Source of the DNA: Thelephora terrestris
Lineage: Eukaryota; Basidiomycota; Agaricomycetes; Thelephorales; Thelephoraceae
Assembly: GCA_015956445.1 (NCBI GenBank)
Contig: WIUZ02000025.1
Location: 62,001-126,000 of the forward strand
Length of the DNA stretch: 64,000 nucleotides
Direction of reading: 5' to 3'
Below the pieces are notes generated by a model. The model did not search any database. It saw only the letters and a list, made by a program, of their open reading frames with translations, and was not told where the DNA came from. Shown piece by piece: positions 22,603 to 61,019 of this stretch (positions are counted from its first letter, which is position 1; each line of letters opens with the position of its first letter). The position numbers and the translations under genes were made by a program.

Positions 22603-23734
22603 TGTGATGATTTCGCCGTTTACCCCCTTTATTTCCTTTATTTTAACACCTCATCACCACTAAGTCAGCTGGTGCCCTGCCCTAAACACGGCGGTAAACT
22701 GTTTGTTATGCCATATGCCCTATGTTTAACGACTCAAAGTCCAATACGTGGAACGTGCTACTAGTCAAGATACCCCAGAAGACCCGAGGTACAATACATG
22801 AACATGTACCGGCGGACCTTCATACAAAGATCCCCCCTACTTGGCCCTCCGTTGCCCCTGGATGACTAGTAGATATTCAGGTTACCGACAACAAGGGATG
22901 TATTAATAAGTGTTGCGTGCTGACCTCTCACAGAAGTCAACCGGCTTATTAATCTGACCCTTGGATTGGACTTATGAAAACCATATGTTTTACAACTCAT
23001 GCACAAAAAGACAAGAAAGAAGATTAATTCCAGGAGCCACAGTACAAAAGAGTTATCTAATCAATATCTCTGCAAATCCTTTGTACTGCCTCCAAGGCCG
23101 ACCTCACCAACTCCTCATTCGCCCAGTTCTGCTCCCTAATCTCATTTGGATCCACGTCCGACAGGTCCCCATAATCTGGAAGCTCGGTATCAGAGTTTGG
23201 TTCCGAATCAGGAACAAACTCGGCATACGGATCAAACTCCAGAGCCGGCCATTGATTCCTCGGCAAAGTTGTATCTGTAACCGTAATCAGAGGATTCATT
23301 CTCCTATGAGGAATAGGAGTGTCCCTGCGGACAACTCCAACGTTCCTGTAGAACTCCTCCTCCTGGATCTCGACAACTTTATCATCAATGGGAACCAACC
23401 TGTTCTCATACTTGTCAGGAACATGGTATTTTTAAACTTTTTATAACATGCTCTTTCTTCGAACTCTTCTTACCATTTCTTATGTTTGAATGCTTCACAT
23501 TCCTTATCCTTCACACCAATCATTCAAAAACACACAAACGCGCATACATTCACGGCAATACGGAACAACATGGCTATACTAATGCTTATACAACGTCCTC
23601 AAAAGTCGACTCTATCTACGGCAGGCCTGAAGGTCATCAACTGTCCATCCCGGAGATCGTAGTGCTGGCCCCTCCTCGCAAGGACCTCCCCGAACATGGC
23701 GTCACCGTCTTCGGCACTCAGCTGAACGACCAGT

Positions 23735-25336
23735 TCAAGCCGATAGGAAGAGATGCCTTCGAGCGGACCGATCAGCCTCCCAGATGTCACCGAACTGCTG
23801 AACACCTGGTCCCACATCTCCATCACCGGGTGACTGCTCAACAGCACTATCGACGTAATCGGCGAGCGACCCTCCGTCTCCCTCATCGGACCCCTGGGTG
23901 GGATCCTGCTTTGCGAGGCGAAGCTGGTGTCGGAGTTGGATCTCGGACTCGACCTGTCGGTAAGGACGGTGGACCCGATATCGGAATCCTCGCTCCTCAC
24001 CTCGACCAGATTGGTCACCATCCGACTCAACTGGTCGAGGGTAAGGATTAGCCGATGCGGTCATACAATGAGCAGGACGGCGTCGAGAGCGTTTGCATCG
24101 TTGCCCCTTAGTCACCGGACGTACCTCGGCGACCCTCGGAGCATCTTCAGCTCGGTCAACCTCCATGACCTCATCCTCGATCTTCACCAACTGATGGATC
24201 GGCTGCAAGACGCAGCGCCCACAGTTCTCCTTGTCGGAAGTGGCCAAAGTCGAAGCCGGACCTGGAGTCAGAACGGGAACCGCGTTCTCGATCGGAGGCG
24301 TCGCATAGGACGACGGGTTAGGAGATGGGAGTACCACCTCGTCGGCGTACTCCAACTCGAATGGAACATCGGCTGTCCCCTGACCAACCAATTTGGGACC
24401 CTCCTTACAGTTGCAGGTCTTGTCCTGTAAGGACTCAACCTGCGCCGTCAGCACCGCTACCACGTTCTCGAGTTCTTCCGTCTAGAAGAAGTCTTTCAGT
24501 TATTGCACAAACTGCAAAGGCTGAAAGACGACCTTTTCGTCCCTCCTGGCCAACGCCCCTTTGATGTTGTTGTCCCTAACCTTCAACCCGGCGATCAACT
24601 CCTGATGGTTGGCGACCATTGCCTCCAACGCCTCGTTCGTTCCCTGTTGGAAGGCTGCCAAGGTCTCCTTCATCTGAAGACCTTCCGCTGACAGATGAAG
24701 GACGTCTGCCTTCGCCTCTTTAACCTCACGCTCCAATCGTTCAACCTAGGCAGTCTGATTAGTCGAGAGTCATACTCGAATATTCAGACAGAAAACCTAC
24801 CCGGCTTTCTCCCTCCCGAACGAGCGACCACAAGAGACTAGTGGAAGCGGTGGCGTGGCGGACGGCCCGAGGAACGGTTGCCCCGTGCTCTAATAGGTCC
24901 TGATTGTAGATCCCCCTCTGCAGGGTATACCAGAGCTCCTTCTTGATCGGATGCTCCAACTCCCCGAACCTACCCCTCATCTGGAAGGCCACCTTCTCGG
25001 CGATAATCGTGCGGACCCAGAGCTCGTCATCCCAGGTCAACCCCATCAAATGAGGCATCGTCTCCCTGAGACGTTCGGCGTCCACTTCTGTGACGACCTC
25101 CAAGATCTAGAAGCCGTTAGTGTGACATCAACGCCAAAAGAACGATCCTCTACCTAGAGGAAGGCGTTAGTGCGAACACACGAAGCTCTAGGTCTCCCCC
25201 ATACCTGGTCATCTGTGGTATAGGGAGTCCCCGCCGCACAGGCGTAGGACTTGCGGGCGGCGGCACGACGGTCGATGCGAGAGATGGTGGAGATGCCGTT
25301 GGCGACTTTGTAGGTATGGTTGTTGGGGAAGGACAT
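23735..25336 (-). CDS. X gene 2: four-exon coiled-coil protein, 465 aa, function unknown (intact copy)
   Basis: Exons are 25336-25205, 25106-24801, 24745-24533 and 24481-23735, each a whole number of codons, with GT..AG introns of 98, 55 and 51 nt. In order: a short N-terminus (MSFPNNHTYKVANGIS); a globular-looking block with LMGLTWDDELWVRTIIAEK and ELEHPIKKELWYTLQRGIY (residues 45-146); a coiled coil (about 147-232); a CNC motif (about 240); a KENCGRC motif (about 301-307); a basic patch KGQRCKRSRRRP; and an acidic tail. I know no family for it. It is antisense to the LTR-like promoter of X. A TATA-like ATAAGAAGG box lies about 65 bp upstream (around 25402). An alternative C-terminal frame (24030-23599) is also open, so the tail could be read differently. 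Confidence 0.7.
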
Positions 25337-26282
25337 GTTGTGGTAAGATGATGGGGAAGTTGTTGGTGTTGCTGATCAAGGATGGCTCCAAGAAGACGTC
25401 CTTCTTATAGCCTAGATCGGTGATCCTTCACGTGACCTACCTCGACGAACCTCATTGGTCCGGGTCACATCAACTTCCGCCCCTGTACCATCATCGTTGG
25501 CTTACTACATCAAGCTGACACCTCGGCCCGCGGGACGGCCTTGGAAGAACTTCGTTCCGGAACGCCTAGAACGCGCGCGCACTAAAAATAGGTCTCATGA
25601 CCTTGACGATCCCTTTACGAACCCCCTTTATGACCCTGATGACTCATTTATGACATCATGATAACGACCAACCCTGGACCCTGGAACACACACGTGGGCA
25701 CGGGGTATCAACATTTGGACACTGTGCTTCTAATCGGATAGTAACCCTATCTGATCTAGTTGTGCTTTGGAAGCAGAGTAGGCCCGAGCCAAGAACGGCG
25801 GCCGAAGAATATAATCCCTGGTGCCACTTAGGAAGAATGATATTCCCAGGTGCTATGCCTAATCAAGACTGGGTCTGATCAAGCGATTACGGCTGCAACT
25901 CCCAGGTTACTGCCTGTCCGTTGGCATCATACCACCTACCGACAACAAGGGATGTGTAGAGTTCCTTCGATCTCTAGCCAATCGCAGAAGCTCAGAGACG
26001 GTGCTCACCTGACCCTTGGGTGTGGTCTAGATTCAGGTACGAACTTTCATGACCCATGCCCCTATTTCTTTTAGGACTAGTGTTATCTTTACCCCTATGT
26101 TTCATGCGGACATTCCTTATCTTTTATGCAATCCTTCACACGCTAGTAAGGCCCTTTGTCCTTTATCTTCCCACGCATCACATTTGTTCGCTTCCCTTAC
26201 TTAGCGTTCTCACACTCCTTATCTCCCTTTGTTCTGGACTTGATAAGGGTATATTAGGGTATTAACGTCATGGCCACTCCTT

Positions 26283-26290
26283 TAGTATAA
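26283..26290 (+). promoter_or_regulatory. Sense TATA-type box of X1 near its 3' end
   Basis: TAGTATAAG followed by GTAGCAACTGTGGC. The same block occurs in X2 (about 40580) and reversed in X4 (about 43475). The position and direction fit an LTR promoter driving outward. Confidence 0.45.
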
Positions 26291-27262
26291 GTAGCAACTG
26301 TGGCTGTATCGTAGTACCTTAGTTTTGTTACCTCAGGAAATCCTCTGCCCTTCTCAGCCCAGTTGCAGTTAAGGACAAGTCAGAGTTTCTTGTTTGATCC
26401 AAGACATCCCCATCTGCTCTCCCTCCCGCTCTGCGCGTCAACTGCGCCTCGTAACTATAGACTCCCAGCAGTCATATTAGAACACCTCGAGCGTCCAGTC
26501 GATCAACTGGTGGAGTCATCAATCCTGTTGTAGGGATCAACCCTTGCTTGTTAAACCGAACAAAGTGCGGTTTAGGTTGGGTTTCTCTTTAGGATTTCGA
26601 CCTGACTTGTAGTGACCTCGGACAACCTACCGGAAGAATAGAGACGTGATCGTTCTCTCACAAGCTAGTTGGACTAGTGAGTACTCTGCGGAGTCGGCTC
26701 AGTGCACTGGTAGTAGTTGGGGTAGAGTGGCCCTGACAATACTGGACCACCAAACGAGCAGGCGGAGACTTGGCCCGCTCCGGAACCTCCAACTCTTCTT
26801 CCTCAACTCGGACCTCCGGCTCGTTACACTTCCTCTGGAGATCGCGGACTTCTCCGGTCAACTCGGAGACACGACGAGTAAGGCGAACCTAAAAAGGAAA
26901 GGGTTAGAATGATGACAAATATCTTCTACCCCTACCCCTTACCTTATCATCCTCCAATTCCCCGGTCTTAGTAACCAGAGCCTGGACCAAGTCCTTGAGA
27001 GTGGTCAACTCTCCCTTCAACAAATCGATGTTGGCGCCCTGCTGAAAGATGCTATCTTCCTGTCCATGAATAACACCTTGCATATCTTCCTTCCAATTCT
27101 CCAAAGCTTCTATCTCTTCGCGACGACCATCGATGCGCTCGTTAACGTGAGCCACTTCATCCATCAACATGGACCCAACGTTCCCCATATGAAGAACGCT
27201 GGCCTCCAATACAGAGTTGAAGGTCTTGTTGGCCTCAGTCATGAACTCGACACCCCTATTGA

Positions 27263-27773
27263 CACTGGGGGCAGACCCCTACTTACCCAGTAGGCAAATT
27301 GAGAGTTTTTCAAGAGTTTTTAAACAATTTGCTCAACACAAGCCCACAGTTCTAACTGAGAGTATTTTCAAAAAATGCCCGCATATTTGTCCTCAAAAAA
27401 CCCAGCAGGTATGTTCTTAATTTACCCAGGTTTCATTGTAAACAGAGCCTCCTAGGTTATTTTTTAATTTACTCACAAAAAACCCACTCAAAAACCCACC
27501 AGGCAATTTGTGTTCACATTGAAATACAATTTTGAAATTTACTCAGTAGGCCAATTTATTATGAAATCTTACCATACCCGGAGGGTTTGGCAAGAGTTTT
27601 TTTTTATGTGCCTGAAATTTGCACTTTTGCAACACGGCGGGTAATCTTTGAACTTACTAGCGGCGTAAGTTGAGAATTTTCCCGAAATGAGCGCTCCATG
27701 AGCCTCCCACGTTCTTTGAAGGCTCTTTCACAAATTACCCCGGTATTTGCACAAAGCGAACCCGCCGGTCCGA
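27263..27773. mobile_element. Z-type element fragment (Z1), right end lost
   Basis: Starts CACTGGGGGCAGAC after TGA, inside W gene 1 exon 2, like the intact Z elements, and has AT-rich, hairpin-prone content. The matching CCCCAGTG end is absent; FB1 begins at 27774. It marks a breakpoint rather than a clean insertion. Confidence 0.6.
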
Positions 27774-27789
27774 GCCCCTTCAGCTATCT

Positions 27790-28910
27790 TTTCTCCATGG
27801 GTCATGGACCATACATCGTGACAATTCTCCATGGGTCATGGGCCATGCAACGTTGTACAACGCGTTGTACAACTCATGACCCATGGAGAAAAGATACCAT
27901 TGTACAACCCATGACCCATGGGTAATGGAATAGTATCCGTTGCCCATGCCCCATGGGTTGTACAACACTATCCCTTCCCCATGCCTCATGGGTTGTACAA
28001 TGCTATCCTTTCCCCATGGGGCATGGGTTGTACAACACTATCCATTCTCCATGCCCCATGGGTTGTACAACACTATCCATTTCCCATGCCCCATGGGTTG
28101 TACAACACTATCCAATTCCCATGCCCCATGGGTTGTACAACGCTATCCAATTCCCATGCCCCATGGGTTGTACAACACTATCCGTTCCCCATGGGTCATG
28201 GGTTGTACAACGCTATCCTTTCTCCATGGGGCATGGGTTGTACAACGCTATCCTTTCTCCATGGAGCATGGGTTGTACAACACTATCCATTCTCCATGCC
28301 CCATGGGTTGTACAACACTATCCAATTCCCATGCCCCATGGGTTGTACAACGCTATCCAATTCCCATGCCCCATGGGTTGTACAACATTATCCATTCTCC
28401 ATGCCCCATGGGTTGTACAACACTATCCATTTCCCATGGGTCATGGGTTGTACAACACTATCCAATTCCCATGCCCCATGGGTTGTACAACACTATCTAA
28501 TTCCCACGCCCCATGGGTTGTACAACCCTATCCTTTCCCCATGGGGCATGGGTTGTACAACACTACCCATTCTCCATGCCCCATGGGCTGTACAACGCTA
28601 TCCATTTCCCATGGGTCATGGGTTGTACAACACTATCCATTCTCCATGCCCCATGGGTTGTACAACGCTATCCATTTCCCATGCCCCATGGGTTGTACAA
28701 CACTATCCATTTCCCATGCCCCATGGGTTGTACAACACTATCCTTTCTCCATGGGGCATGGGTTGTACAACAATACCCATTCTTCATGCCCCATGGGTTG
28801 TACAACACTATCTATTTTCCATGCCCCATGGGTTGTACAACAGCATCTTGTGCCCATGGGGCATCAGTTGCAGAATGGTGTCCTTTCTCCATGTCCCATG
28901 GATTATATCA
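27790..28910 (+). repeat. 35-bp minisatellite, FB1 left arm
   Basis: About 31 units. Each has the palindrome GTTGTACAAC, a spacer (ACTATCCATT and variants) and a 15-bp hairpin CCCATG-nnn-CATGGG with loop CCC, GGG, GGT or CCT. Because 35 is not a multiple of three and the unit lacks stops on this strand, all three frames stay open; the resulting ORFs (346 and 355 codons) are not taken as genes. Confidence 0.95.
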
Positions 28911-29157
28911 CTATTCCAGGAAAGGAGATACTTTATAAATCAACCATTAGCTGTGTGAATTTGAAAAAATTAGACTCTGTTTGTATGCATGATAGACCAT
29001 ATATCAGTTTGTGGCTCTAACCTAATGGAAACTAAACTTAACCTGATAATAGCCACAACCTAATCCTCAATCTAACCTGAGCCAATGTAAACTTGACCCA
29101 TGAACCTAAGCCTAACCTAATCCTAAACCTGGTCTAATCCCAAATCTAACCCTAACC

Positions 29158-29292
29158 TGACCTAACCTAACCTAACCTAACCTAACCTAACCTAACCTAA
29201 CCTAACCTAACCTAACCTAACCTAACCTAACCTAACCTAACCTAACCTAACCTAACCTAACCTAACCTAACCTAACCTAACCTAACCTAACC
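29158..29292 (+). repeat. (CCTAA)n tract, FB1 left arm
   Basis: About 27 perfect CCTAA units, bordered by degenerate CCTAA-like words on both sides. The complement TTAGG is the arthropod-type telomere unit; most basidiomycetes use TTAGGG. Confidence 0.95.
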
Positions 29293-30009
29293 TATACCTA
29301 AACTAACCTATACCTAATCTAACCTGGTATGGGCAAACCTAACCTACACTATCATGACCTGTTTCAGCCTAATGTCATGTATGCCAGCCAAGACTAACTT
29401 CACCCAGTTGCAAACATATGACTTGGGTCACAGGACCATAAAGCAAACTGCAGTCCCCTCACTCTGTGCCCAACCATCCCATAAGCCCACAGACGCACAT
29501 ATATATCATCAGCAACCCAGCATCATGCTTATCACCCATGTTCAACCACAAACCACTCTCACCCTTTTTTCTGTGCTATCTCAAAGCCTAACCATAACTC
29601 TAGCTCACCCACCCATATTAATCCTTGTGTGGAATATGTTATAAGTCTATAAACCATATGTTTGTAGGCCACTTGCTTGTGGGCCCAAGAAGGTGGATGA
29701 ACTTGAGTTGTGGTTTGTCTGTGAGATGGCACAGAATAAAGGGTGAGAGTGGTTTGTGGTTGAACATGGGTGATAAGCATGATGCTGGGTTGCTGATGAT
29801 ATATATGTGCGTCTGTGGGCTTATGGGATGGTTGGGCACAGAGTGAGGGGACTGCAGTTTGCTTTATGGTCCTGTGACCCAAGTCATATGTTTGCAACTG
29901 GGTGAAGTTAGTCTTGGCTGGCATACATGACATTAGGCTGAAACAGGTCATGATAGTGTAGGTTAGGTTTGCCCATACCAGGTTAGATTAGGTATAGGTT
30001 AGTTTAGGT

Positions 30010-30150
30010 ATAGGTTAGGTTAGGTTAGGTTAGGTTAGGTTAGGTTAGGTTAGGTTAGGTTAGGTTAGGTTAGGTTAGGTTAGGTTAGGTTAGGTTAGGT
30101 TAGGTTAGGTTAGGTTAGGTTAGGTTAGGTTAGGTTAGGTTAGGTTAGGT
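30010..30150 (+). repeat. (TTAGG)n tract, FB1 right arm
   Basis: Inverted partner of 29158-29292, about 27 units and also uninterrupted. Confidence 0.95.
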
Positions 30151-30409
30151 CAGGTTAGGGTTAGATTTGGGATTAGACCAGGTTTAGGATTAGGTTAGGC
30201 TTAGGTTCATGGGTCAAGTTTACATTGGCTCAGGTTAGATTGAGGATTAGGTTGTGGCTATTATCAGGTTAAGTTTAGTTTCCATTAGGTTAGAGCCACA
30301 AACTGATATATGGTCTATCATGCATACAAACAGAGTCTAATTTTTTCAAATTCACACAGCTAATGGTTGATTTATAAAGTATCTCCTTTCCTGGAATAGT
30401 GATATAATC

Positions 30410-31140
30410 CATGGGACATGGAGAAAGGACACCATTCTGCAACTGATGCCCCATGGGCACAAGATGCTGTTGTACAACCCATGGGGCATGGGAAATAGAT
30501 AGTGTTGTACAACCCATGGGGCATGGGAATCAGATAGTGTTGTACAACCCATGGGGCATGGGAATCAGATAGTGTTGTACAACCCATGGGGCATGAAGAA
30601 TGGGTATTGTTGTACAACCCATGCCCCATGGAGAAAGGATAGTGTTGTACAACCCATGGGGCATGGGAAATGGATAGTGTTGTACAACCCATGCCCCATG
30701 AAGAATGGATAGTGTTGTACAACCCATGCCCCATGGAGAAAGGATAGCGTTGTACAACCCATGAGGCATGGGAATCAGATAGTGTTGTACAACCCATGAC
30801 CCATGGGGAATGGATAGTGTTGTACAACCCATGGGGCATGGGAATTGGATAGTGTTGTACAACCCATGAGGCATGGGGAACGGATAGTGCTGTACAACCC
30901 ATGGGGCATGGGAATTGGATAGTGTTGTACAACCCATGCCCCATGGAGAAAGGATAGCATTGTACAACCCATGAGGCATGGGGAAGGGATAGTGTTGTAC
31001 AACCCATGGGGCATGGGCAACAGATACCATTGTACAACCCATGGGGCATGGGCAACGGATACTATTCCATTACCCATGGGTCATGGGTTGTACAGTGCGT
31101 TGTACAACATTGAATGGCCCATGACCCATGGAGAAAAGAT
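30410..31140 (-). repeat. 35-bp minisatellite, FB1 right arm
   Basis: About 20 units of the same repeat in inverse orientation, roughly a third shorter than the left array, so the arms differ in array length although the unique blocks match. Minus-strand ORFs across it (up to 227 codons) are repeat artefacts. Confidence 0.93.
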
Positions 31141-31505
31141 AGCTGAACCCTGTGCTCTCTGGGTGTGATGATTTTGCCGTTTACCCCCTTTCATTTCCTT
31201 TATTTAACATCTCATCACCACTAAGTCAATTGGTGCCCTGCCCTAAACACGGCGGTAAACTGTTTATTATGCAATATGCCCTATGCTTAACGACTCAAAG
31301 TCCAATACGTGGAATGTGCTACTAGTGAAGATACCCCAGAAGACCCAAGGTATAATACGTGAACATGTACCGGTGGACCTTCATACGAAGATCCCCCCTA
31401 CCTGTCCCTCCATTGCCCCTGAACGACTAGTAGATATTCAGGCTACCAACAACAAGGGATGTATTAATAAGTGTCACGTGCTGACCTCTCACAGAAGTCA
31501 ACCGG

Positions 31506-32530
31506 TGTCGTGACCGTATTTCGGACACTATCCGGAATTGCGACCTTCTCTCAACTATCGACAACCGCTGCGCGAGGTCTAGATGACTTCCCTCAGCATT
31601 CTCGACTGTCCCGATGAGGATTCGCTGTCCCTTTGCTTTGCTACACTTCCCTCTCTTCTTATCCCCCTTCGCGACATCGCGACGTCCCGACGTTTTCCCC
31701 TTTCGACCTGCGACCTGCAACTTAGACCTGCGACCTGCGCCCCCTCGACCTGCGACCTGCGACCTGCGTTTCTTAGCATTTAGTATCCCTAGGACTTTGT
31801 TTCCTTCACATTCCCTCCCGATCACGTCCCGATCAGTCCCGATTGTGTCCCGACTTTTCAGTACGTTTTATATCTTTAGTTCTCATCTCCCTATCTCCAT
31901 TCTCTGCGTCCCGATCACGTCTCGATCGATTGCCCTGCTTGCGACTCCAGACCTCCCTCTGGTTCGTTTCTCAACCACATTCCTTTCCTTCATCATTCCC
32001 TTCGATCCCCCGCCTTCCCTATGTCATAGACTCATCATAAGGTCTCTTGACATCATTTTGGTTCGTTCCCTTTGGTTCCCTTCGTTCTCAGAGCCCTTAG
32101 CATTGTATATAAAAGCCCCTGTATTCGATAGACCAGAGAATAAATCAGCAGTGTTCCCTCTCTCTCTTCCTCTCTCTCTCTCTCTCTTCTGAGGCCTAGC
32201 AGCGTTGCTACGGTCCTCCCTTCGGTTCCCTCGTCGTCTCGCCCTCGTTCTCGTCGTCCCTCTGGTCTCTCAAGTCCCGCCGGTGTCCCGATTTCTGACT
32301 CTGTTGTCCCGACGTATCCCGACGTTTCCCTTTGTTTGTTATCGGTAGTTTCGTTCTCTGGCTTTCCTGTCGTCTTCTGTCTCGTTCTCCCGTTCGTATC
32401 TCGACTTTCCCTCTCGCTGTTCATTCGCTTCCCGCAGATTCCCTAGAGGCTCGCGCCTCTAAACCGAGGACCCGACCTTCTAACTGCCATCTCTGCCCTC
32501 TCGGACTCCGAAGGCTTTGTGGCTAGTTCA
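31506..32530 (+). mobile_element. Solo LTR, family Y, copy 2, in W-B
   Basis: Begins TGTCGTGAC and ends CTAGTTCA, 1025 bp, flanked by CCGG at 31502-31505 and 32531-32534. The empty site is seen in W-A (about 22935) and W-C (about 41090), which read AAGTCAACCGGCTTATTAAT uninterrupted, so both the ends and the duplication are confirmed inside the window. Confidence 0.95.
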
Positions 32531-32639
32531 CCGGCTTATTAATCTGACCCTTGGATTGGACTTATGAAAACCATTATGCTTTACAACTCATGGATCACAC
32601 GCCAAAGACAAGAAAGAAGATTAATTCCGGAAGCCATCA

Positions 32640-33424
32640 TACAGAAGATTTATTTAATCAAGATCTCTGCCAATTGTCTGTACTGCTTCCAAGGCTGTCC
32701 TCACCAACTCCTCATTTGCCCAGTTCTGCTGCCTAATCTCGTTTGGATCTACATCAGACAGATCGTCATAATTACACAGTGGGCAATGGGGTCCAATCCG
32801 ATCCGGATTATCCCCTGTTTATGTTTTGATTAGGATAAATATTCCGTGTATTTTCTAATCTAGTATATATCTGAAAATCCAAGAATAATCCAACAAGGAT
32901 TATTGTTTGAATATTTTTCGGATTATCTAAAATATTTTGCTGTGCTAGCCAATCAGCTGGCTCCAATCACAATATTCCGACACGGAATATTTTACAAGTT
33001 TCCCAACATTTTCTTAGCAATATTACCAATAATTTTCCAGTACTAAACTAATACAGAAAATGTAAGTAATATTTATCCTAATCAGAATATAAACAAGGGA
33101 AAATCCGGATGGGATTGGACCCCATTGCCCACTGTGTTAGGAAGCTCCGTATCAGAGTTTGGTTCCGAGTCAGGAATGAACTCGGCATACGGATCAAACT
33201 TCAAATGAGGAGTGTCCCTGTGAACAACTCCAGCATTCTGGTAGAACTCTTCCTCGCAAATCTCAATGACTTCATCATTGATCGGGACCAACCGGTTCTC
33301 GTACTGGACCACCAAACGAGCAGACGGAGACTCGGCCTGCTCCGGAATCATCAACTCCTCTTCCTCAACTCGAACCTCCTCTCCTTGACACCTCCTCCGA
33401 AGATCACGGACCTCCCTGGTCAAC
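32640..33424 (-). pseudogene. W gene 1, copy B: exon 3 remnant
   Basis: Minus-strand exon 3 only, from about 33424 to 32640, interrupted by M1 between the DSEPNSDTELP motif and the following acidic segment. The remainder upstream is missing. Confidence 0.75.
32775..33136. mobile_element. MITE M1, 362 bp, long terminal inverted repeats
   Basis: Ends CACAGTGGGCAATGGGG and its complement, flanked by TTA at 32772-32774 and 33137-33139. The inverted repeats run well past 50 bp with few mismatches. It carries no ORF. The 3-bp duplication and CAC start fit a CACTA-type mobiliser, but the family is not certain. Confidence 0.85.
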
Positions 33425-39671: not shown

Positions 39672-40645
39672 GTTGGTAAAAGGATGGGGAAGTTGCTGGT
39701 GTTGCTGATCAAGGATGGCTCCAAGAAGACATCCTTATTATAGCCTAGATCAGTGATCCTTCACGTGACCTACCTCGACGCACCTCATTGGTCCGGGTCA
39801 CATCAACTTCCGCCACTGTACCATCATCGTTGGCTTACTACATCAAGCTGACACCTCAGCCCGCGGGACGGCCTTGGAAGAACTTCGTTCCGGAACACCT
39901 AGAACACGTGCGCACTAAAAATAGGTCTCATGACCCTGACGACCCTTTATGACCCTGATGACTCATTCATGACATCACGATAACAACCAACCCTGGACCC
40001 TGATCACACACGTGGACAGTCACATCACAGTCTCCTAACTGGAGGAAGGAATCGCCACTGTTCAGAAGGAGTGCCTTAGACTCCTTTTGGTTAGCCAAGC
40101 GAATGTGGAGTAGCTGTTAGCGTGAAACGCTGGCGAAGCTGTAATCCCTCATGTCCCATGAGTCTAGGCCCGACCTCCTCATGTTCAGACATACGTTGAG
40201 GTTGCCACTAGTCTGTGATGCTGTTACTGCCTACAGACAACAAGGGATGTTATATGGCTCCACTTGCGAATCCGCTTGAATCTCTGAAGTAAAGCGAGGT
40301 TGCCACCTGACCCTTGGCTGTGATCCCCAGGTACGAACTTTCATGACCCCATGCCCCTTTTTCTTTTAGGACTAGTGTTATCCTTACCCCTATGTTTCAT
40401 GTGGACTATTGTTATCTTTTATGCATTCCTTCACACGCTAGTAAGGCCCCTTTGTCCTTTATTCTCCCACGCATCATATTTGTTCACTTCCCTTACTTAG
40501 TGTTCTCACACTCCTTATCTCCCTTTGTTCTATCTTGATAAGGGTATAGTAGGGTTACTGATGTCATGGCCACTCCTTTAGTATAAGTAGCAACTGTGGC
40601 TGTATCGTAGTACCTTAGTTTTGTTACCTCAGGAAATCCTCTGCC
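38355..40645 (+). mobile_element. X element copy 2, both ends incomplete
   Basis: Similarity to X1 begins around 38355 inside gene 2 exon 4, so the first part (TGTCAGGAAC end) is missing. It runs through the sense TATA region (about 40580) and stops at CCTCTGCC (40645), where the reversed X4 begins. The X1 counterpart continues with CTTCTCAGCCCAG. Confidence 0.75.
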
Positions 40646-41219
40646 TGTCAGGGCCACTCTACCCCAACAACTACCAGTGCACTGAGCCGACTCTGCAGAG
40701 TACTCACTAGTCCAACTAGCTGTGAGAGAAAGATCACTTCTCTATTCTTCCGGTTGTGACGATTTCGCCGTTTACCCCCTTCCATTTCCTTTATTTAACG
40801 CCTCATCACCACTAAGTCAGTTGGTGCCCTGCCCTAAACACGGCGGTAAACTGTTTATTATGCAGTATGCCCTATGCTCAACGATTCAAAGTCCAATACG
40901 TGGAACGTGCTACTAGTGAAGATACCCCAGAAGACCCAAGGTATAATACATGAATATGTACCGGCGGATCTTCATACAAAGATCCCCCCTACCTGGCCCT
41001 CCGTTGCCCCTGGACGACTAGTAGAGATTCAGGCTACCGACAACAAGGGATGTATTAATAAGCGTCGCACGCTGACCTCTCGCAGAAGTCAACCGGCTTA
41101 TTAATCTGACCCTTGGATTGGACTTATGAAAACCATTATGCTTTACAACTCATGGATCACACACAATAAACAAAATAAAAGATTAATTCCTTGGAAGCCA
41201 AATAGTACAAAAGAGTTAT

Positions 41220-42429
41220 TTAATCAATATCTCTGCGAATCATTTGTACTACTTCCAAGGCCGATCTCACCAACTCCTCATTCAACCAGTTCTGCTCCTG
41301 GATCTCGTTTGGGTCCACGTCCGACAAGTCATCGTAATCTGGAAGCTCCGTATCAGAGTTTGGTTCACTATCGGGAACAAACTCAGCGTACGGGTCATAC
41401 CCCAGAGCAGGCCATTGACGACGACTACCCCAAGGAGTAGACACGAATTCAAGACGAGGAGTGTCCCTACGGACGACTCCTACGTTCTGATAGAATTCGT
41501 TGCTCCCAATCTCAATGACCTCATCATCAACAGGAACCAACCTGTTCTTGTGACGGACCAACAAACGAGCGGGCGGCAACTCAGCCCGGTTAGGGATTAT
41601 CGGTGACCCGGCCCAATGCGGAACCTCCAACTCTTCTTCCTCAACTCGGACTTCTGGCTCGTTGCACCTCCTCTGAAGATCCCGGACTTCTCCGGTCAAT
41701 TCGGAGACACAACGAGTAAGGCGAACCTAAAAACGAATAGGGTTAGAAGACATCAAAAAACCTTCAACCCCTACCCGTTACCTTATCGTCCTCCAACTCT
41801 CCGGTCTTAGTAACCAGAGCCCGAACCAAGTCCTTGAGAGTGGTCAACTCTCCCTTCACCAAATCGATATTGGCACCCTGCCGAACGATGCTATCTTCCT
41901 GTCCATGAATAACGCCTTGCATATCCTCCTTCCAATTCTCCAAAGCTTCTATCTCCTCACGACGACCATCAATGCGTTCGTTGACATGAGCCACTTCATC
42001 CATTAACATGGACCCAACGTTCCCCGTATGGAGAACGCTGGCCTCCAACACGGAGTTGAAGGTCTCATTGGCCTCAGTCACGAACTCGACACCCCTATTG
42101 AGGAGCTCGTTCGCATATGGGTTGGTCTTGATACGCGCCAACTTGCGCCAAGACACCCTACGAGCGGCTTGGAGAAAGTCCCTGAAACCTAAAAGGAGTT
42201 AGCTTGACTTCCTAAATCGGAATGCGCAAGCAGGGCCCCCACCTAAGTCAGAGAACCCTTCCTTAGGGTCGGCGGTGGCGGTGCGGTTCATAATGGCTCC
42301 CAAAGTAGGATAAGGATGAGACGGATCACGACGGGCATGGGAGAAACGATCGATGTTGAAGTTGTTCTCCTGAACAGGAGAATAAGAAGAAGAGCGACAA
42401 GTGGGAACACGAGTTTGAGCACGAGGCAT
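41220..42429 (-). CDS. W gene 1: three-exon coiled-coil protein, 366 aa, function unknown (intact copy)
   Basis: Exons are 42429-42243, 42188-41782 and 41726-41220; introns of 54 and 55 nt have GT..AG ends. The frame closes at 367 codons with stop. The N-terminus (MPRAQTRVPTCRSSSYSPV) has a short NFNIDRFSHARRDPSHPYPTLG block. Exon 2 has RRVSWRKLARI then a long heptad-rich coiled coil (NERIDGRREEIEALENWK, TTLKDLVRALVTKTGELED). Exon 3 has RDTPRLEF, an acidic DSEPNSDTELPDYDDLSDVD stretch and a helical end. I recognise no family and no catalytic motif. The overall plan (short N-terminus, coiled coil, acidic tail) is like X gene 2 but the sequences do not align by eye. It could be a structural or Gag-like protein; that is a guess. 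Confidence 0.72.
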
Positions 42430-42491
42430 GTTGGCTGTGTGTGTAACAAAGGGAGGGTTGTTGAGAGACCCAGTCATCCAACCCCCTTTGG

Positions 42492-42499
42492 TTATATAC
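42492..42499 (-). promoter_or_regulatory. TATA box of W gene 1
   Basis: GGTATATAAC on the minus strand about 65 bp upstream of the gene 1 ATG, conserved in W-D (about 56630-56640). It is distinct from the outward-facing sense TATA, so W looks bidirectional. Confidence 0.55.
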
Positions 42500-42862
42500 C
42501 AAATGCCACGCCCCTTCCACGACTCAGGAGTTGAGTCATGATTTCTATTGTTTACTGTGCATGACCCACATGACATCATATGCCCCTATTTCTTAGTCAT
42601 ATGCTCCCCTTTTGCCATTGGCTGTTAGTCAGTCATACCCACATTCCTTCCGAACATTCCCAGGCTACGTCATGCTTTGTAACTGCTTTGTAATGCTCTC
42701 AAATTGCTATTGGCCGCCACACTTTCGTTTATCAGCTGATAATTTGTAGCATTAGTCACCACGTAACGCACAGACCATGCAGTGCTGTGCACGGACCATG
42801 TTTGTCTGTGTTTGTATCATTAGTGTAGTTACATTTTACTGTCATGTCACAAATCTAAGTAG

Positions 42863-42870
42863 TATATATA
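42863..42870 (+). promoter_or_regulatory. Sense TATA box of W-C
   Basis: AGTATATATACTCAG, identical in W-D (about 57001-57015), followed by a shared leader rich in CT. The position near the 3' end and outward direction match an LTR promoter. Confidence 0.55.
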
Positions 42871-44463
42871 CTCAGAGTAGTTTAGCCTGTACTCCTTAGA
42901 TTTGTTATCATCAGACTCTCCGTGACCTCTACTGCTGTGTGCTTAGAGCAAGAGTGCCTGAAGACCCTTGTCTCCTTCCTTCTCCTTCTCTCCAATCTAG
43001 TCTGTGAAGATATTTCCGATATCCCTGGATTTGCAACAGGGCTATAACTGTGTGTTTGACCCCTTGAGTGCGATAGGTTTGGATAGCAAGAGTGCTATTG
43101 AACTGTAGAGGTCGCGTCGGCCTGACACCGGTAGGTTGTCCAAGGTCACTACAAGTCAGGTCGAAATCCTAAAGAGAAACCCAACCTAAACCGCACTTCG
43201 TTCGGTTTAACAAGCAAGGGTTGATCCCTACGACAGGATTGATGACTCCACCAGGTGATCAACTGGACGCTTGAGGTATTCTATATGATGAACACTGGGG
43301 TTCTATAGTTACAAGGCGCAGTTCGACGCGCAGAGCGGGAGGGAGAGCAGATGGGGGATGCCTTGTGTTCAAACAAGAAACTCTGACTTGTCCTTAACTG
43401 CAACTGGGCTGAGAAGGGCAGAGGATTTCCTGAGGTAACAAAACTAAGGTACTACAATACAGCCACAGTTGCTACTTATACTAAAGGAGTGGCCATGACG
43501 TCAATACCCTAATATACCCTTATCGAGTCCAGAACAAAGGGAGATAAGGAGTGTGAGAACGCTAAGTAAGGGAAGTGAACAAAGAATGACGTGTGGGAGA
43601 ATAAAGGACAAAGGGCCTTACTAGCGTGTGAAGGATTGCATAAAGATAACAAATGTCCGCATGAAACATAGGGGTAAAGATAACACTAGTCCTAAAAGAA
43701 AAAGGGGCATGGGGTCATGAAAGTTCGTACCTGGGGATCACACCCAAGGGTCAGGTGGAAACCTCTCATTGCTTCGTGCAATTTTCGAGCGGCTCCGAGA
43801 TAAGAGACCATACAGCATCCCTTGTTGTCTGTAGGCGGTAACAGCATCACGGAATAGTGGCAACCTCAACGTACGTCCGAACATGAGGAGGTCGGGCCTA
43901 GACTCATGGGACATGAGGGATTACAGATTTGCCGGCGTTTCACGCTAACGGCTACTCCACATTCGCTGGGCTAAACAAAAGGAGTCTGAGGCACTTCTTC
44001 TGAATAATGGTGATTCCTTCCTCCGGTTTAGGAGACTGTGATGTGACTGTCCACGTGTGTGATCAGGGTCCAGGGTTGATCGTAATCGTAAAGTCATGAG
44101 GGGTCGTAAAAGGGGTTCGTGATGTCATAAAGGGGTCATCAGGGTCTTGAGACCTATTTTTAGTGCGCGCGCGTTCTAGGCGTTCCGGAACGAAGTTCTT
44201 CCAAGGCCGTCCCGCGGGCCGAGGTGTCAGCTTGATGTAGTAAGCCAACGATGATGGTACAGGGGCGGAAGTTGATGTGACCCGGACCAATGAGGTTCGT
44301 CGAGGTAGGTCACGTGAAGGATCACCGATCTAGGCTATAAGAAGGACGTCTTCTTGGAGCCATCCTTGATCAGCAACACCAGCAACTTCCCCATCATCTT
44401 ACCAAAACTTGTTCTTCCCCAACAACCATACGTACAAAGTCGCCAACAGCATCTCTACTATCT

Positions 44464-47234: not shown

Positions 47235-48259
47235 TCAGTTGGTGAAGATCAAGGATGAGGTCATGGAGGTTGACCGAGCCGAAGATGCTCCAAGAGTCGC
47301 CGAGGTACGTCCGGTGACTAAGGGGCAACACTGCAAACGCTCTCGACGCCGTCCCGCCCATCGTATGACCACGTCGGGTAATCCTTACCCTCGACCAGTT
47401 GAGTCGGATGGTGACCAGTCTGGTCGAGGTAAGGAGCGAGGATTCCGATATCGGGTCCACCGTCCTTACCGACAGGTCGAGTCCGAGATCCAACTCCGAC
47501 ACCAGCTTCACCTCGCAAGGCAGGATCCCACCCAGGGGTCCGATGAGGGAGACGGAGGGTCGCTCGCCGACTACGTCAATAGTGCTGTTGAGCAGTCACC
47601 CGGTGATGGAGATGTGGGACCAGGTGTTCAGCAGTTCGGTGACATCTGGGAGGCTGATCGGTCCGCTCGAAGGCATCTCTTCCTATCGGCTTGAACTAGT
47701 CGTTCAGCTGAGTGCCGAAGATGGTGACGCCATGTTCGGGGAGGTCCTTGCGAGGAGGGGCCAACACTACGATCTCTGGGATGGACAGTTGATGACCTTT
47801 AGGCCTGCCGTAGATAGAGTCGATTTCTGATGGGACGATGATAGCACTTGTATAGCTCGTTGTGGATTCGCTGGGAATAGTACGCGCGTGTGTGTGTTGA
47901 ATGATTGATGTGAAGGATAAGGAATGTGAATCATTCAAACAGAAGAATTGGTAAGAAAAGTTCGAAGAAAGAGCGTGTTATAAAAAGTTTAAAAATACCA
48001 TGTTCCTGACACCCTAGGACTTTGTTTCCTTCACATTCCCTCCTGATCACGTCCCGATCAGTCCCGATCGTGTCCCGACTCTCCACTGCGTCTTGTTTCT
48101 TGAGTTTACATTTCCCTATCTCCATTCCCTGCGTCCCAATCACGTCTCGATCGATCGCCCTGCTTGCAACTCCAGACCTCCCTCTGGTTCATTTTCCAAC
48201 CACATTCCTTTCCCTCGCCGTTCCCTTCGATCCCTCACAGGGTTCAGCTATCTTTCCTC

Positions 48260-49900
48260 CATGGGTCATGGACCATACATCGTGACAATTCTCCATGGGT
48301 CATGGGCCATGCAACGTTGTACAACCCATGACCCATGGAGAAAAGATACCATTGTACAACCCATGACCCATGGGTAATGGAATAGTATCCGTTGCCCATG
48401 CCCCATGGGTTGTACAATGGTATCTGTTGCCCATGCCCCATGGGTTGTACAACACTATCCCTTCCCCATGCCTCATGGGTTGTACAATGCTATCCTTTCC
48501 CCATGGGGCATGGGTTGTACAACACTATCCAATTCCCATGCCCCATGGGTTGTACAGCACTATCCGTTCCCCATGGGTCATGGGTTGTACAACGCTATCC
48601 AATTCCCATGCCCCATGGGTTGTACAACACTATCCGTTCCCCATGGGTCATGGGTTGTACAACGCTATCCTTTCTCCATGGGGCATGGGTTGTACAACAA
48701 TATCCATTTCCCATGCCCCATGGGTTGTACAACACTATCTGATTCCCGTGCCCCATGGGTTGTACAATGCTATCCGATTCCCATGCCCCATGGGTTGTAC
48801 AATGCTATCTGATTCCCATGCCCCATGGGTTGTACAACGCTATCTGTTCCCCATGGGTCATGGGTTGTACAACACTATCCATTCTCCATGGGGCATGGGT
48901 TGTACAACGCTATCCATTCTCCATGGGGCATGGGTTGTACAACACTATCCAATTGCCATGCCCCATGGGTTGTACAACACTATCCGTTCCCCATGGGTCA
49001 TGGGTTGTACAATGCTATCCTTTCTCCATAGGGCATGGGTTGTACAACAATATCCATTTCCCATGCCCCATGGGTTGTACAACACTATCTGTTCCCCATG
49101 GGTCATGGGTTGTACAACACTATCCAATTCCCATGCCCCATGGGTTGTACAACGCTATCCAATTGCCATGCCCCATGGGTTGTACAACACTATCCGTTCC
49201 CCATGGGTCATGGGTTGTACAACGCTATCCATTCTCCATGGGGCATGGGTTGTACAACACTATCCATTCTCCATGGGGCATGGGTTGTACAACACTATCC
49301 GTTCCCCATGGGTCATGGGTTGTACAACGCTATCCATTCTCCATGGGGCATGGGTTGTACAACACTATCCAATTCCCATGCCCCATGGGTTGTACAACGC
49401 TATCCGTTCCCCATGCCTCATGGGTTGTACAACACTATCTGTTTCCCATGGGGCATGGGTTGTACAACACTATCCAATTCCCATGCTCCATGGGTTGTAC
49501 AACGCTATCCGTTCCCCATGCCTCATGGGTTGTACAACACTATCCATTTCCCATGGGGCATGGGTTGTACAACACTATCTGTTCCCCATGGGTCATGGGT
49601 TGTACAACGCTATCCATTCTCCATGGGGCATGGGTTGTACAACGCTATCCGTTACCCATGGGTCATGGGTTGTACAATGCTATCTGTTCCCCATGGGTCA
49701 TGGGTTGTACAACACTATCCAATTCCCATGCCCCATGGGTTGTACAACACTATCCATTCTCCATGGTGCATGGGTTGTACAACACTATCTATTTTCCATG
49801 CCCCATGGGTTGTACAATGCTATCCAATTCCCATGCCCCATGGGTTGTACATCACTATCCAATTCCCATGCACCATGGGTTATACAACAGCATCTTGTGC
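48260..49900 (+). repeat. 35-bp minisatellite, FB2 left arm
   Basis: About 46 units of the FB1-type repeat with mixed CCC, GGG, GGT and CCT loops. The 565-codon ORF across it is a by-product of a stop-free repeat. Confidence 0.93.
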
Positions 49901-51119
49901 CCATGGGGCATCAGTTGAAGAATGGTCTCCTTTCTCCATGTCCCATGGATTATATCACTATTCCAGGAAAGGAGATACTTTATAAATCAACCATTAGCTG
50001 TGTGAATTTGAAAAAATTAGACTCTGTTTGTATGCATGATAGACCATATATCAGTTTGTGGCTCTAACCTAATGGAAACTAAACTTAACCTGATAGTAGC
50101 CACAACCCAATCCTCAATCTAACCTGAGCCAATGTAAACTTGACCCATGAACCTAAGCCTAACCTAATCCTAAACCTGGTCTAATCCCAAATCTAACCCT
50201 AACCTGACCTGACCTAACCTAACCTAACCTAACCTAACCTTATCTGACCTGAACCTACACCTAACCTAACCTAAAACCACTCTCACCCTTTGTTCTGTGC
50301 TATCTCAAAGCCTAACCATAACTCTAGTTCACCCACCCATATTAATCCTTGTGTGGAATATGTTATAAGTCTATAAACCATATGTTTGTAGGCCACTTGC
50401 TTGTGGGCCCAAGGAGGTGGATGAACTTGAGTTGTGGTTTGTCTGTGAGATGGCACAGAACAAAGGGTGAGTGTGGTTTGTGGTTGAACATGGGTGATAA
50501 GCATGATGCTGGGTTGCTGATGATATATATGTGCGTCTGTGGACTTATGGGATGGTTGGGCACAGAGTGAGGGGACTGCAGTTTGCTTTATGGTCCTGTG
50601 ACCCAAGTCATATGTTTGCAACTGGGTGAAGTTAGTCTTGGCTGGCATACATGACATTAGGCTGAAACAGGTCATGATAGGTAGGTTATGTTTGCCCATA
50701 CCAGGTTAGGTTAGGTATAGGTTAGTATAGGTATAGGTTAGTTTAGGTATAGGCTAGGTTAGGTTAGGTTAGGTGTAGGTTCAGGTCAGATAAGGTTAGG
50801 TTAGGTTAGGTTAGGTTAGGTTAGGTCAGGTCAGGTTAGGGTTAGATTTGGGATTAGACCAGGTTTAGGATTAGGTTAGGCTTAGGTTCATGGGTCAAGT
50901 TTACATTGGCTCAGGTTAGATTGAGGATTGGGTTGTGGCTACTATCAGGTTAAGTTTAGTTTCCATTAGGTTAGAGCCACAAACTGATATATGGTCTATC
51001 ATGCATACAAACAGAGTCTAATTTTTTCAAATTCACACAGCTAATGGTTGATTTATAAAGTATCTCCTTTCCTGGAATAGTGATATAATCCATGGGACAT
51101 GGAGAAAGGACACCATTCT

Positions 51120-51890
51120 GCAACTGATGCCCCATGGGCACAAGATGCTGTTGTATAACCCATGGTGCATGGGAATTGGATAGTGTTGTACAACCCATGG
51201 GGCATGGGAATTGGATAGTGATGTACAACCCATGGGGCATGGGAATTGGATAGCATTGTACAACCCATGGGGCATGGAAAATAGATAGTGTTGTACAACC
51301 CATGCACCATGGAGAATGGATAGTGTTGTACAACCCATGGGGCATGGAGAATGGGTAGTGTTGCACAACCCATGCCCCATGGGGAAAGGATAGTGTTGTA
51401 CAACCCATGCCCCATGGGGAATGGATAGTGTTGTACAACCCATGGGGCATGGGAATCAGATAGTGTTGTACAACCCATGGGGCATGGAGAATGGATAGCG
51501 TTGTACAACCCATGGGGCATGGGAATTGGATAGTGTTGTACAACCCATGGGGCATGGGAAATGGATAGTGTTGTACAACCCATGCCCCATGGAGAATGGA
51601 TAGCGTTGTACAACCCATGACCCATGGGAAATGGATAGTGTTGTACAACCCATGGGGCATGGGAATCAGATAGTGTTGTACAACCCATGCCCCATGGGGA
51701 AAGGATAGCATTGTACAACCCATGAGGCATGGGGAAGGGATAGTGTTGTACAACCCATGGGGCATGGGCAACAGATACCATTGTACAACCCATGGGGCAT
51801 GGGCAACGGATACTATTCCATTACCCATGGGTCATGGGTTGTACAACGTTGCATGGCCCATGACCCATGGAGAATTGTCACGATGTATGG
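51120..51890 (-). repeat. 35-bp minisatellite, FB2 right arm
   Basis: About 22 units, inverse orientation. The order of loop types does not mirror the left arm unit for unit, so the arrays evolve independently of the unique blocks. Confidence 0.9.
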
Positions 51891-53874: not shown

Positions 53875-54908
53875 TCAGCAAGCAAGTTCGTCCGTTCGCT
53901 TTTCCTTTGGTGTACCCGTCATGTTTTAACCAAAGCACTGCAAACTTGCAATCAGTCCACCCCTTCTTTGAATAACCAAGCCTGCTCCAGATGTGGTAAG
54001 TTGTGAGACCTGTCTCAATTTTCTAGGTTGACTTACATAGCATTTGTTGGGTTGTCTTATTTCCATTTGACGAGGTATTTTGAACCCTTGAAGATGACAG
54101 TGGGTGGCACAGATGTACCATCTGCACAAATGGTCACCATCACGGTGATATTTTCCCTATTCCCAGTGTTCTGCTGATGCTGAATGCGCTTTCCCGCAGC
54201 CCCTATTACCTTCTCGTTAGAGGACCCGGTGCCGGTTTGGAAGGCCAACTCATCACTTCCGTAGATATTCTCATCAGCAATTGGATCCCCATTGTCCCCA
54301 GTCTTGAGGACCTTTCCAAGGAGGTTGTAGAAACCACGATGGGTGAATGGATTTACGGCCTGCCCATGGAGTGACTCGAGCGGGTGTGCTCGGTGGGTCT
54401 GTATGACATCTCGGTGACGGCCCAGGAAGCGGTCAACCCAACACTTGCCAACGCCGTCTTCAGGAAACTTGGCTCCGAGCCTTGCCCGACATATCTCATT
54501 GACATGCTCTCTTGTCCGTTTTTTGCTGAGTGGCCATCCCCGTGATGCAAGTTCAAGGATAAAATCAAGCAGGACCCTCTCTTCATCAGGTAGTAGCCAT
54601 GCCTTCTCCTGATTGAATTGAGTGAGGGAACGGGCACCTTCGGTCAACATTAAGCACTCCGACACATCAAATAAGTTCCTAAACATACCATTCAACCTTG
54701 CACAAACGGTGTTATAGCATAGTGCAATACTGGCCCCCGTTTCCGTTTTAAATTCTTCTTCCACCATCTTGCAGACTGTTCTATAGCCCGGTGGCTTCTC
54801 CGGGCCCAAATTTTCCAAGGCTTTGTACAGTTCAACTGCACGTTGGACTGCAGCCTCTCTCTGCTCTGTTGACTTCTTTTTTGCAGCTTCAGCCTGCTTG
54901 TTTAATTT

Positions 54909-57266
54909 TGTGATGATTTTGCCGTTTACTCCCTTTTATTTCCTTTATTTAATGCCTCATCACCACTAAGTCAGCTGGTGCCCTGCCCTAAACACGGCGG
55001 TAAACTGTTTATTATGCCATATGCCCTATGTTTAACGACTCAAAGTCCAATATGTGGAATGTGCTACTAGTCAAGATACCCCAGAAGACCCGAGGTATAA
55101 TACGTGAACATGTACCGGCGGACCTTCATACGAAGATCCCCCCTACCTGGCCCTCCGTTGCCCCTGGACCACTAGTAGATATTCAGGCTACCGACAACAA
55201 GGGATGTATTAATAAGTGTCGCACGTTAACCTCTCGCAGAAGTCAACAGGCTTATTAATCTGACCCTTGGATTGGACTTATGAAAACCATTATGTTTTAC
55301 GACTTATGGATTATGCACAAAAGACAAGAAAGAAGATTGATTCCAGGAGCCACAGTACAAAAGAGTTATCTAATCAAGATCCCTTCGGATCCTCTGTACT
55401 GCCTCCAAAGCTGCCCTCACCAACTCCTCATTTGCCCAATTCGCCTGCCTAATCTCATTCAGATCCACGTCCGACAGGTCCCCGTAATCTGGAAGCTCGG
55501 TATCAGAGTTCGGTTCCGAGTCAGGAACAAACTCGGCATACGGATTGAACTCTAGAGCTGGCCATTGGTTCCTCGGCAAAGTCGTATCCGTAACCGTGAT
55601 CAGAGGATTTATTCTCCTACGAGGAATAGGAGTGTCCCTACGGACAACTCCAACATTCCTGTAGATTTCCTCTTCCTGGATTTCAACAACCTTGTTATTG
55701 ATGGGAACCAACCTGTTCTCATACTGAACCACCAAACAAGCAGGCGGAGACTTGGCCCGCTCTGGAATCTCCAACTCTTCTTCCTCAACTCAGACCTCCG
55801 GCTCGTTACACCTCCTCTGGAGATCATGGACTTCTCCGGTCAACTCGGAGACACGACAAGTAAGACGAACCTAAAAAGGAAAGGGTTAGAATGATGACAA
55901 ATATCTTCTACCCCTACCCCTTACCTTATTGTCCTCCAATTCTCCGGTCTTAGTAACCAGACTCCGGATCAAGTCCTTTAACGTAATCATCTCCCCCTTC
56001 AACAAGTCAATATTGGCCGACTGCCGAACCATCACGTCTTCCTGTCCATGCAAGAAATCTTGGGCGGTCCCCTTCCATTCTTCAAGCTTTGCGATATCCT
56101 CCTTCCTACTGTCGACTTGGGCCTGAACGTAGGCCAACTCGTCCATCAACATGGTACCAACGTTACTCGTATGAGTAACGCTGGCCTCAAGGATTGAGTT
56201 GTAGGTCTGGTTCGTTTCAGTAACAAACTCGACCCCATGAGTCAGGAGTTCTTCTGCATAAGGGTTACTCTCGATACGCGCCAACTTGCGCCGAGACACC
56301 CTGCGAGAAGCTTGAATGAAATCCCGAAATCCTAAAAAGGTGTTTGGTTAGCTTTCCTAAATTGGAATGCGCAACCAGACCCCCCACCTAAGTTGGTAAA
56401 ACCCTCATTAGGGTCGGCGGTGGCAGAACAATCCATAATGTTACCCAAAGTAGGATAAGGGCGGGATCGATCTCGATGGGCATGAGAAAAGTGGTCGATG
56501 TTGAAGTTATTCTCCATAACTGGAGAAACGGAGGAACGACGAGAGGTAGAGCGGATGTTGGAACAAGGCATGTTGGCTGTGTGTAACAAAGGATGGTTTG
56601 TTGAGAGACCCAGTCATCCAACCCCCTTTGGTTATATACCAAATGCCACGCCCCTTCCACGACTCAGGAGTTGAGTCATCTTTTCTATTGTTTACTGCGC
56701 ATGACCCACATGACATCATATGCCCCTATTTCTTAGTCATATGCTCCCCTTTTGCCATTGGCTGTTAGTCAGCCATACCCACATTCCTTCTGAACATTCT
56801 CAGGATATGTCATGCTTTGTAACTGCTTTGTAATGCTCTCAAATTGCTATTGGCCGCCATACTTTCGTTTATCAGCTGATAATTTGTAGCATTAGTCACC
56901 ACGTAAAGCACAGACCATGCAGTGCTGTGCATGGACCATGTTTGTCTGTGTTTGTATCCTTAGTGTAGTCACTTGTCACTGTCACGTCACAAATCTAAGT
57001 AGTATATATACTCAGAGTAGTTTAGCCTGTACTCCTTAGATTTGTTATCATCAGACTCTCCGTGACCTCTACTGCTGTGTGCTAAGAGCAAGAGTATCTG
57101 AAGAACCTTGTCTCCTTCTTTCTCTCCCTATCCAATCTAGTCTGTGAAGAGACTTCCGCTATCCCTGGGTTTGCAACAGGGTTATAATTGTGTATTTGAC
57201 CCCTGAGTGTGAAAGGTTTGGATAGTAAGAGTGCTATTGAACTGTAGAGGTTGCGTCGGCCTGACA
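54909..57266 (+). mobile_element. W element copy D, complete, with ATTT duplication
   Basis: Begins TGTGATGATTTTGCC and ends GTCGGCCTGACA, 2358 bp, flanked by ATTT at 54905-54908 and 57267-57270. Removing it with one ATTT joins the pogo start M-A-K-L-N-K in frame, which independently fixes both ends. Same layout as W-C. Confidence 0.94.
55370..56571 (-). pseudogene. W gene 1, copy D: full length with one nonsense codon
   Basis: Exons are 56571-56388, 56331-55925 and 55870-55370, colinear with W-C and all splice sites kept. TGA at 55792-55790 replaces the CGA (Arg) of the other copies, a CpG transition. The rest is open to the stop at 55370. The coiled coil is diverged (KEDIAKLEEWKGTAQDFLHG) yet heptads are retained. 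Confidence 0.82.
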
Positions 57267-60895: not shown

Positions 60896-61012
60896 TGTGA
60901 TGATTTTGCCGTTTACCCCCTTTCATTTCCTTTATTTAACGCCTCATCACCACTAAAACAGTTGGTGCCTTGCCCTAAACACGGCGGTAAACTGTTTATT
61001 ATGCAGTATGCC
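60896..61012 (+). mobile_element. W element copy E, first 117 bp only
   Basis: TGTGATGATTTTGCCG through CAGTATGCC, matching the start of W-C, then cut at the FB3 end. Confidence 0.8.
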
Positions 61013-61019
61013 CACAGGT

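Follow-up and report, generated by a model that had tools for sequence, protein, structure and literature searches.

The W units of Thelephora terrestris are LTR-like insertions of about 2.4 kb which occur singly, have constant TG..CA ends and lie between 5-bp target duplications, and most of each unit is filled by a spliced gene on the opposite strand (gene 1) that bears the mark of purifying selection. With a probability of roughly 55% we regard them as solo LTRs of a retroelement that would carry an antisense accessory gene in its U3 and whose body is absent from the assembly. We prefer this reading because the ends are of the retroviral integration type and because the outward TATA-like box fits a U3-R-U5 layout and would serve no obvious purpose if W stood alone. 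Its main weakness is the missing body.

Results and Discussion

The window, i.e. the whole stretch of 64 kb that was analysed, holds the five W copies of the original prediction, two of them complete (W-C and W-D) and three broken (W-A, W-B and W-E; Table 1). For W-C the predicted TG..CA ends and the CCGGT on both flanks were borne out. A second copy of its host repeat, located on the opposite strand, runs uninterrupted through the W-C site with one CCGGT, and this unoccupied site is the strongest single proof of insertion. W-D is complete and duplicated as well, but its flanks are the 5-bp sequences AATTT and ATTTT with one mismatch, of which the ATTT given earlier is the shared part. The host repeat around W-C has inverted arms of about 0.9 kb (39755-40645 and 43417-44323, with the other copy at 25930-26738), and sequence of this repeat also flanks the copies L002, L003, L006 and L007. 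Apart from W, the window contains 35-bp tandem repeats that form long inverted arms, about 1.1 kb in length and 89-90% complementary to each other, with a short centre between them (27768-31108 and 48255-51846), a Helitron-type open frame of 2400 aa (8270-15472, minus strand), pieces of a Plavaka transposase (1927-2880 and 4071-5441, plus strand) and a Tc5-type DNA-binding domain (54057-54818, minus strand).

Table 1: Features of the W copies in the window, ordered by position.
Feature	Position	Strand	Remarks
W-A, interrupted	22603..27262	+	W parts 22603-23407 and 26763-27262
Unoccupied counterpart of the W-C site, single CCGGT	26629..26633	.	in the other copy of the host repeat
W-B, interrupted	31164..33424	+	W stretches 31164-31506, 32530-32772 and 33140-33424
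Left 5-bp target duplication of W-C, CCGGT	40750..40754	.	
W-C, complete LTR-like unit	40755..43127	+	TG..CA, 2373 bp, TGTGACG...CTGACA
Conserved non-coding stretch 3' of the stop codon	40869..41149	-	predicted branched RNA fold
Gene 1, last exon and stop codon	41220..41726	-	
Gene 1, last intron	41727..41781	-	GT..AG, 55 nt
Gene 1, exon 2	41782..42188	-	site of the further intron of 28/31 copies between 41854 and 41853
Gene 1, intron 1	42189..42242	-	GT..AG, 54 nt
Gene 1, exon 1	42243..42429	-	start codon at 42429; ATG in 31/31 copies
TATA-like box of gene 1, GGTTATATACC	42490..42500	-	about 60 nt ahead of the start codon
Outward TATA-like box, GTATATATAC	42862..42871	+	about 260 bp from the right end
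Right 5-bp target duplication of W-C, CCGGT	43128..43132	.	
W-D, complete, second copy	54909..57266	+	about 82% identity to W-C; gene broken
W-E, fragment of the left end	60896..61013	+	

Using patterns of the two ends (25 bp for the left one) and allowing up to three mismatches, we found 222 left and 217 right ends in the assembly (40.6 Mb, 60 contigs) and no match to the patterns read backwards. W amounts to about 200 genomic copies with fixed TG..CA ends and a usual size of about 2,420 bp, and the uniformity of these ends across copies is a point on which the original prediction could have failed. Junctions were listed by their exact 12-bp ends, which gave 192 right and 200 left ones (16 further exact ones were counted besides). 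They form 164 pairs, with 28 right and 36 left ends remaining partnerless. Among the listed pairs 117 are complete copies (2300-2500 bp), 46 are spaced 2.5-20 kb apart and one is shorter than 2300 bp; W-C has a C at position 6 and is not among the 117. Identical 5-bp duplications flank 106 of the listed complete copies, four more have one mismatch and seven have none, compared with about 0.1 exact matches (117/1024) expected by chance with random flanks. The outer duplication is also exact in 36 of the 46 listed pairs lying 2.5-20 kb apart and has one mismatch in another, and in an earlier set of 30 copies with the boundary fixed it was exact in 26/30 and had one mismatch in 2/30.

Just four mismatches in 550 duplicated positions suggest a recent insertion of these copies, although selecting for exact ends favours young ones. 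For a closer comparison we aligned 31 copies, consisting of W-D, the 10 best BLAST matches and 20 copies that were picked because their ends are exact and their size is full; owing to this choice decayed copies are under-represented. No two of them are more than 96% identical, and the W insertions look young yet have no close sister copies in this sample. In L073 and L074 W is interrupted by inserts of about 3.2-3.3 kb, and the overlaps of about 10 bp at the point of interruption would fit duplications of the Mutator type.

The three-exon antisense gene that had been predicted was found in W-C, where gene 1 encodes 366 aa on the minus strand, but it is not the rule of the family, 28 of the 31 copies having four exons. 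The further intron (52-57 nt) interrupts exon 2 at a single exact site in L003-L010 and L041-L060 and is lacking in W-C, L002 and W-D. Two forms of it have diverged from each other, A (55-57 nt, 12 copies) and B (52-54 nt, 16 copies), and by eye the ends of both can form hairpins. Since types A and B are shuffled across both main exon haplotypes (8, 4, 11 and 4 copies), the W copies have, to judge from this pattern, recombined. Once the further intron is removed, the full frame of 356-367 aa with start codon and all splice signals is present in 27 of the 31 copies, and in L007, L010, L051 and W-D the frame is shortened with start and splice signals retained. In the 351 pairwise comparisons among the 27 intact copies, dN/dS is 0.16 (range 0.02-0.29; mean dN 0.080, mean dS 0.51) and below 1 in every single pair, and in a simulation with no selection, 5% substitutions and indels left out, 20% of the frames stay intact. 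On the evidence of its coding sequence gene 1 is real and under purifying selection.

Regarding the product of gene 1, the best Pfam matches are coiled-coil models below the cut-off and the PDB matches are mostly coiled coils with E values of 0.015 or worse. These weakly matched families point to a protein with a long coiled coil. No named domain above the cut-off, no transposase domain and no named relative was found in Pfam, PDB and IMG/VR, and gene 1 had no match at all in the last of these. We take the SMC domain of the plant element PvRetro13, discussed below, to be a coiled-coil kind of protein too.

Both TATA-like boxes that had been noticed in W are present throughout the sample, the outward one (GTATATATAC) being intact in 31/31 copies and the gene-side one (GGTTATATACC) kept in 30/31. 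Nowhere does W vary less than in the 50-bp stretch that holds the outward box (0.5% pairwise), and the inverted repeat that surrounds this putative promoter could be a protein-binding site. With its putative outward promoter the right end of W appears to fit a U3-R-U5 layout. In 30 copies the non-coding arms (50-bp windows at positions 1-400 and 1751-2425) show 0.5-8% differences, against a synonymous divergence of 0.51 in the gene and 0.24 in the window over the first intron. The low variation of the arms reflects either strong constraint or a homogenisation in which old gene haplotypes were kept.

If W is an LTR, two direct copies around a PBS, gag-pol and a PPT should be found, and the search for them, proposed with the original prediction, was negative at every site that could be judged. 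Complete copies lying next to each other in direct orientation form 11 pairs among the listed ends, and none of these has a common outer duplication (three pairs were inspected base by base and the C10 pair was also read), which rules out a W-body-W structure in these close direct pairs. Likewise none of the 24 long pairs (>4,860 bp, leaving room for two complete Ws) fits W-body-W, one of them being two independent Ws side by side, so that a full-length element concealed within the interrupted copies was rejected. Eight of these 24 were judged from both 1.3-kb ends, three were read whole and 13 were examined with one 301-bp probe placed at the expected end of a complete left W, a placement that would miss any left W differing from the usual length by more than roughly 150 bp; the 13 probes contained no W right end and a single 20-nt match to another part of W. 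Taken together, no LTR-body-LTR element was found among 134 judged cases (the 24 long pairs and the 110 complete copies that have a duplication to themselves), and from 0/134 the rule of three gives at most about 2% of copies as full-length. This tally leaves out the seven complete copies lacking a duplication, of which only a single one lies within 12 kb of another complete copy in direct orientation, and there the outer duplications do not match. The layout of a TRIM or LARD, with two LTRs, PBS and PPT but no gag-pol, was not seen in the 11 neighbour pairs and 24 long pairs either.

No recurrent PBS- or PPT-like sequence was found at the 392 listed junctions (192 right, 200 left). Four right-flank and three left-flank pairs are identical; two of each match on both sides and are segmental duplicates, in the C1 right-flank pair there is an exact duplication, and the C15/C24 right-flank and C12 left-flank pairs look by eye neither PBS- nor PPT-like. 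Genome-wide we scored 144 integrase matches, many of them in open frames of >1,000 aa, and a listed W end lies within 10 kb of 32 of these matches. An LTR-like orientation is given in 12 combinations of end and integrase; 11 of these ends are part of Ws that have an exact 5-bp duplication to themselves, and the twelfth (C12:2344578) comes from an incomplete W. At 30 integrase loci W was absent from 1.5 kb on each side. The statement that no pol belongs to W is thereby upheld, as 11 of the 12 LTR-oriented ends near an integrase sit in separately duplicated Ws.

From these results the LTR interpretation stands in part. W is LTR-like, present in many copies and filled for the most part by an antisense spliced gene, but its being an LTR did not pass the search for two Ws. 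Because the two-LTR structure was looked for and not found, we do not file W among the LTR retrotransposons, although in our reading it acts like one of their LTRs. Also the copies look young and none was seen with a body, and other families in the genome keep many long integrase frames, both of which speak against solo LTRs. Either the parent of W is missing here or W moves by an undescribed route.

The second of these would be the case if W were the whole mobile unit, a stand-alone 2.4-kb DNA with LTR-like ends that uses a retroviral-type integrase in trans and encodes an antisense accessory factor, which we consider possible but doubtful. In its favour, 110 of the 117 listed complete copies are single units each flanked by a separate duplication, the search for two-W elements was negative, the conservation of both arms and gene is what a compact complete element would show, and recent-looking copies for which no body is seen would be explained. 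However, an outward promoter near one end would have no evident purpose, we identified no helper that shares the ends of W, with 164 of the 192 listed right ends pairing with a W left end, and we know of no route from one LTR to integration-ready DNA. Held still more tentatively is the idea that W is a complete element of an undescribed kind, which has no two-LTR form here and needs its spliced coiled-coil protein in order to spread.

TGT..ACA ends and 4-6-bp duplications are also found in integrase-derived DNA transposons, and W shares these features, so that it might be a DNA transposon, Ginger-like or of another type, which is non-autonomous and has captured a host gene. We think this unlikely, as the terminal inverted repeat comprises just a few bases (TGTGA../..TGACA) and the product of gene 1 has no transposase domain. 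Moreover, among the interrupted copies examined there is no larger relative with the same ends, and a transposase-bearing one, which would have spoken against the original prediction, was not present among the copies examined.

A possible RNA in W was analysed as well. On the gene strand, the predicted fold of the 310 nt beyond the gene 1 stop codon beats 100/100 shuffles (z -4.8), with 5/102 predicted pairs changed on both sides; at one predicted pair, 30 of 47 copies have G-C and 16 have A-U. The wobble asymmetry of this fold (24 vs 13) is non-significant (p 0.10), and windows in the coding region of W reach a similar z, so that the fold is suggestive of a structured RNA and is treated as a lead only. 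No Rfam ribozyme matched L008 (E up to 5) or the whole window (gathering scores), and the search of W for a known tRNA or Rfam family gave no support for either. A retrozyme-like or viroid-like agent, in which a structured RNA and a small coiled-coil protein would be copied into DNA, could account for the branched fold and its double-changed pairs but is very improbable in view of the missing ribozyme family, the wobble asymmetry and the similar scores of the coding windows.

We therefore return to W as solo LTRs with a gene in U3. TG..CA ends and a 5-bp duplication are the result of retroviral-type integration as established for Ty1/Ty3-type elements, and the staggered 5-bp cut at the ends of W would likewise be made by an integrase of the retroviral type. 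The right end would act as U3-R-U5 and be transcribed from the outward promoter, and U3 would be filled by the oppositely oriented accessory gene, which would have a separate promoter, two to three introns and a coiled-coil product of 356-367 aa. Recombination between the two 2.4-kb repeats of each presumed parent element would remove the body and leave a solo LTR. As gene 1 sits inside the repeat, the solo copy would retain it, and many intact gene copies would persist in the genome after loss of the body. Its protein would probably act in trans, as a regulator or helper of the parent element.

Genes in antisense orientation have been described for several plant LTR elements. According to the accessible text of a review (PMC7264820), maize Grande (gene23), rice RIRE2, Silene Retand and PvRetro13 carry antisense extra ORFs that are placed between pol and the 3' LTR and for which a regulatory role is suggested, and an SMC domain is reported for the PvRetro13 product. 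As described there, all four resemble W in having a conserved antisense gene and differ from it in being complete elements whose ORF follows pol and precedes the 3' LTR, whereas the gene of W lies inside the unit, bears introns and comes without a pol that we could find. In fungi, an antisense gene named brtn is described for Boty of Botrytis (Zhao et al. 2011, cited by PMC7264820 and PMC8365987). It is similar to W as a fungal LTR element carrying an antisense extra gene, and it is set apart by its description in the review, where brtn lies between pol and the 3' LTR. The original prediction, which named antisense ORFs for some plant LTR elements and knew of no fungal family with a spliced gene filling the LTR, is to be corrected in that antisense genes of fungal LTR elements such as brtn are in print, but in the descriptions available they are not inside the LTR. 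In the openly accessible literature searched, no antisense spliced gene within an LTR was found. The sag gene of mouse mammary tumour virus is a protein gene within the LTR as in W, but it is encoded on the sense strand of a virus of mice that has complete proviruses.

Families without full-length copies have been described in other fungi. In the S. pombe reference Tf1 is represented by 28 solo LTRs and the full-length elements are all Tf2, whereas full-length Tf1 is present in other strains, and five families of solo LTRs are reported for C. neoformans JEC21 (all from the accessible text of PMC7175516). As Tf1 in the S. pombe reference and the JEC21 families lack full-length copies according to this source, they are precedents for a W that occurs as solo copies only. 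Tf1 is alike in being an LTR family with no full-length copies in one genome but differs from W by its far fewer copies. Its LTRs are short and do not contain a gene. TRIMs such as Cassandra, Helenus and Ajax also carry extra sequence in their LTRs, and fungal Helenus makes 5-bp duplications, as stated in the accessible text of PMC10886601. In contrast to W, which is one unit with a protein gene, they have two LTRs around PBS and PPT and their extra sequences are derived from small RNAs.

Conclusion

If W units are solo LTRs, a gene located inside the LTR would outlive the loss of the body, and solo LTRs alone could suffice for the family to go on influencing its host or its own relatives. Should it be true that W has no two-LTR parent, it would represent a new way of spreading for LTR-type DNA. 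In both cases W-like units would offer a clean test for the role of antisense retroelement genes, a question that the accessible text of the review cited above (PMC7264820) leaves open.
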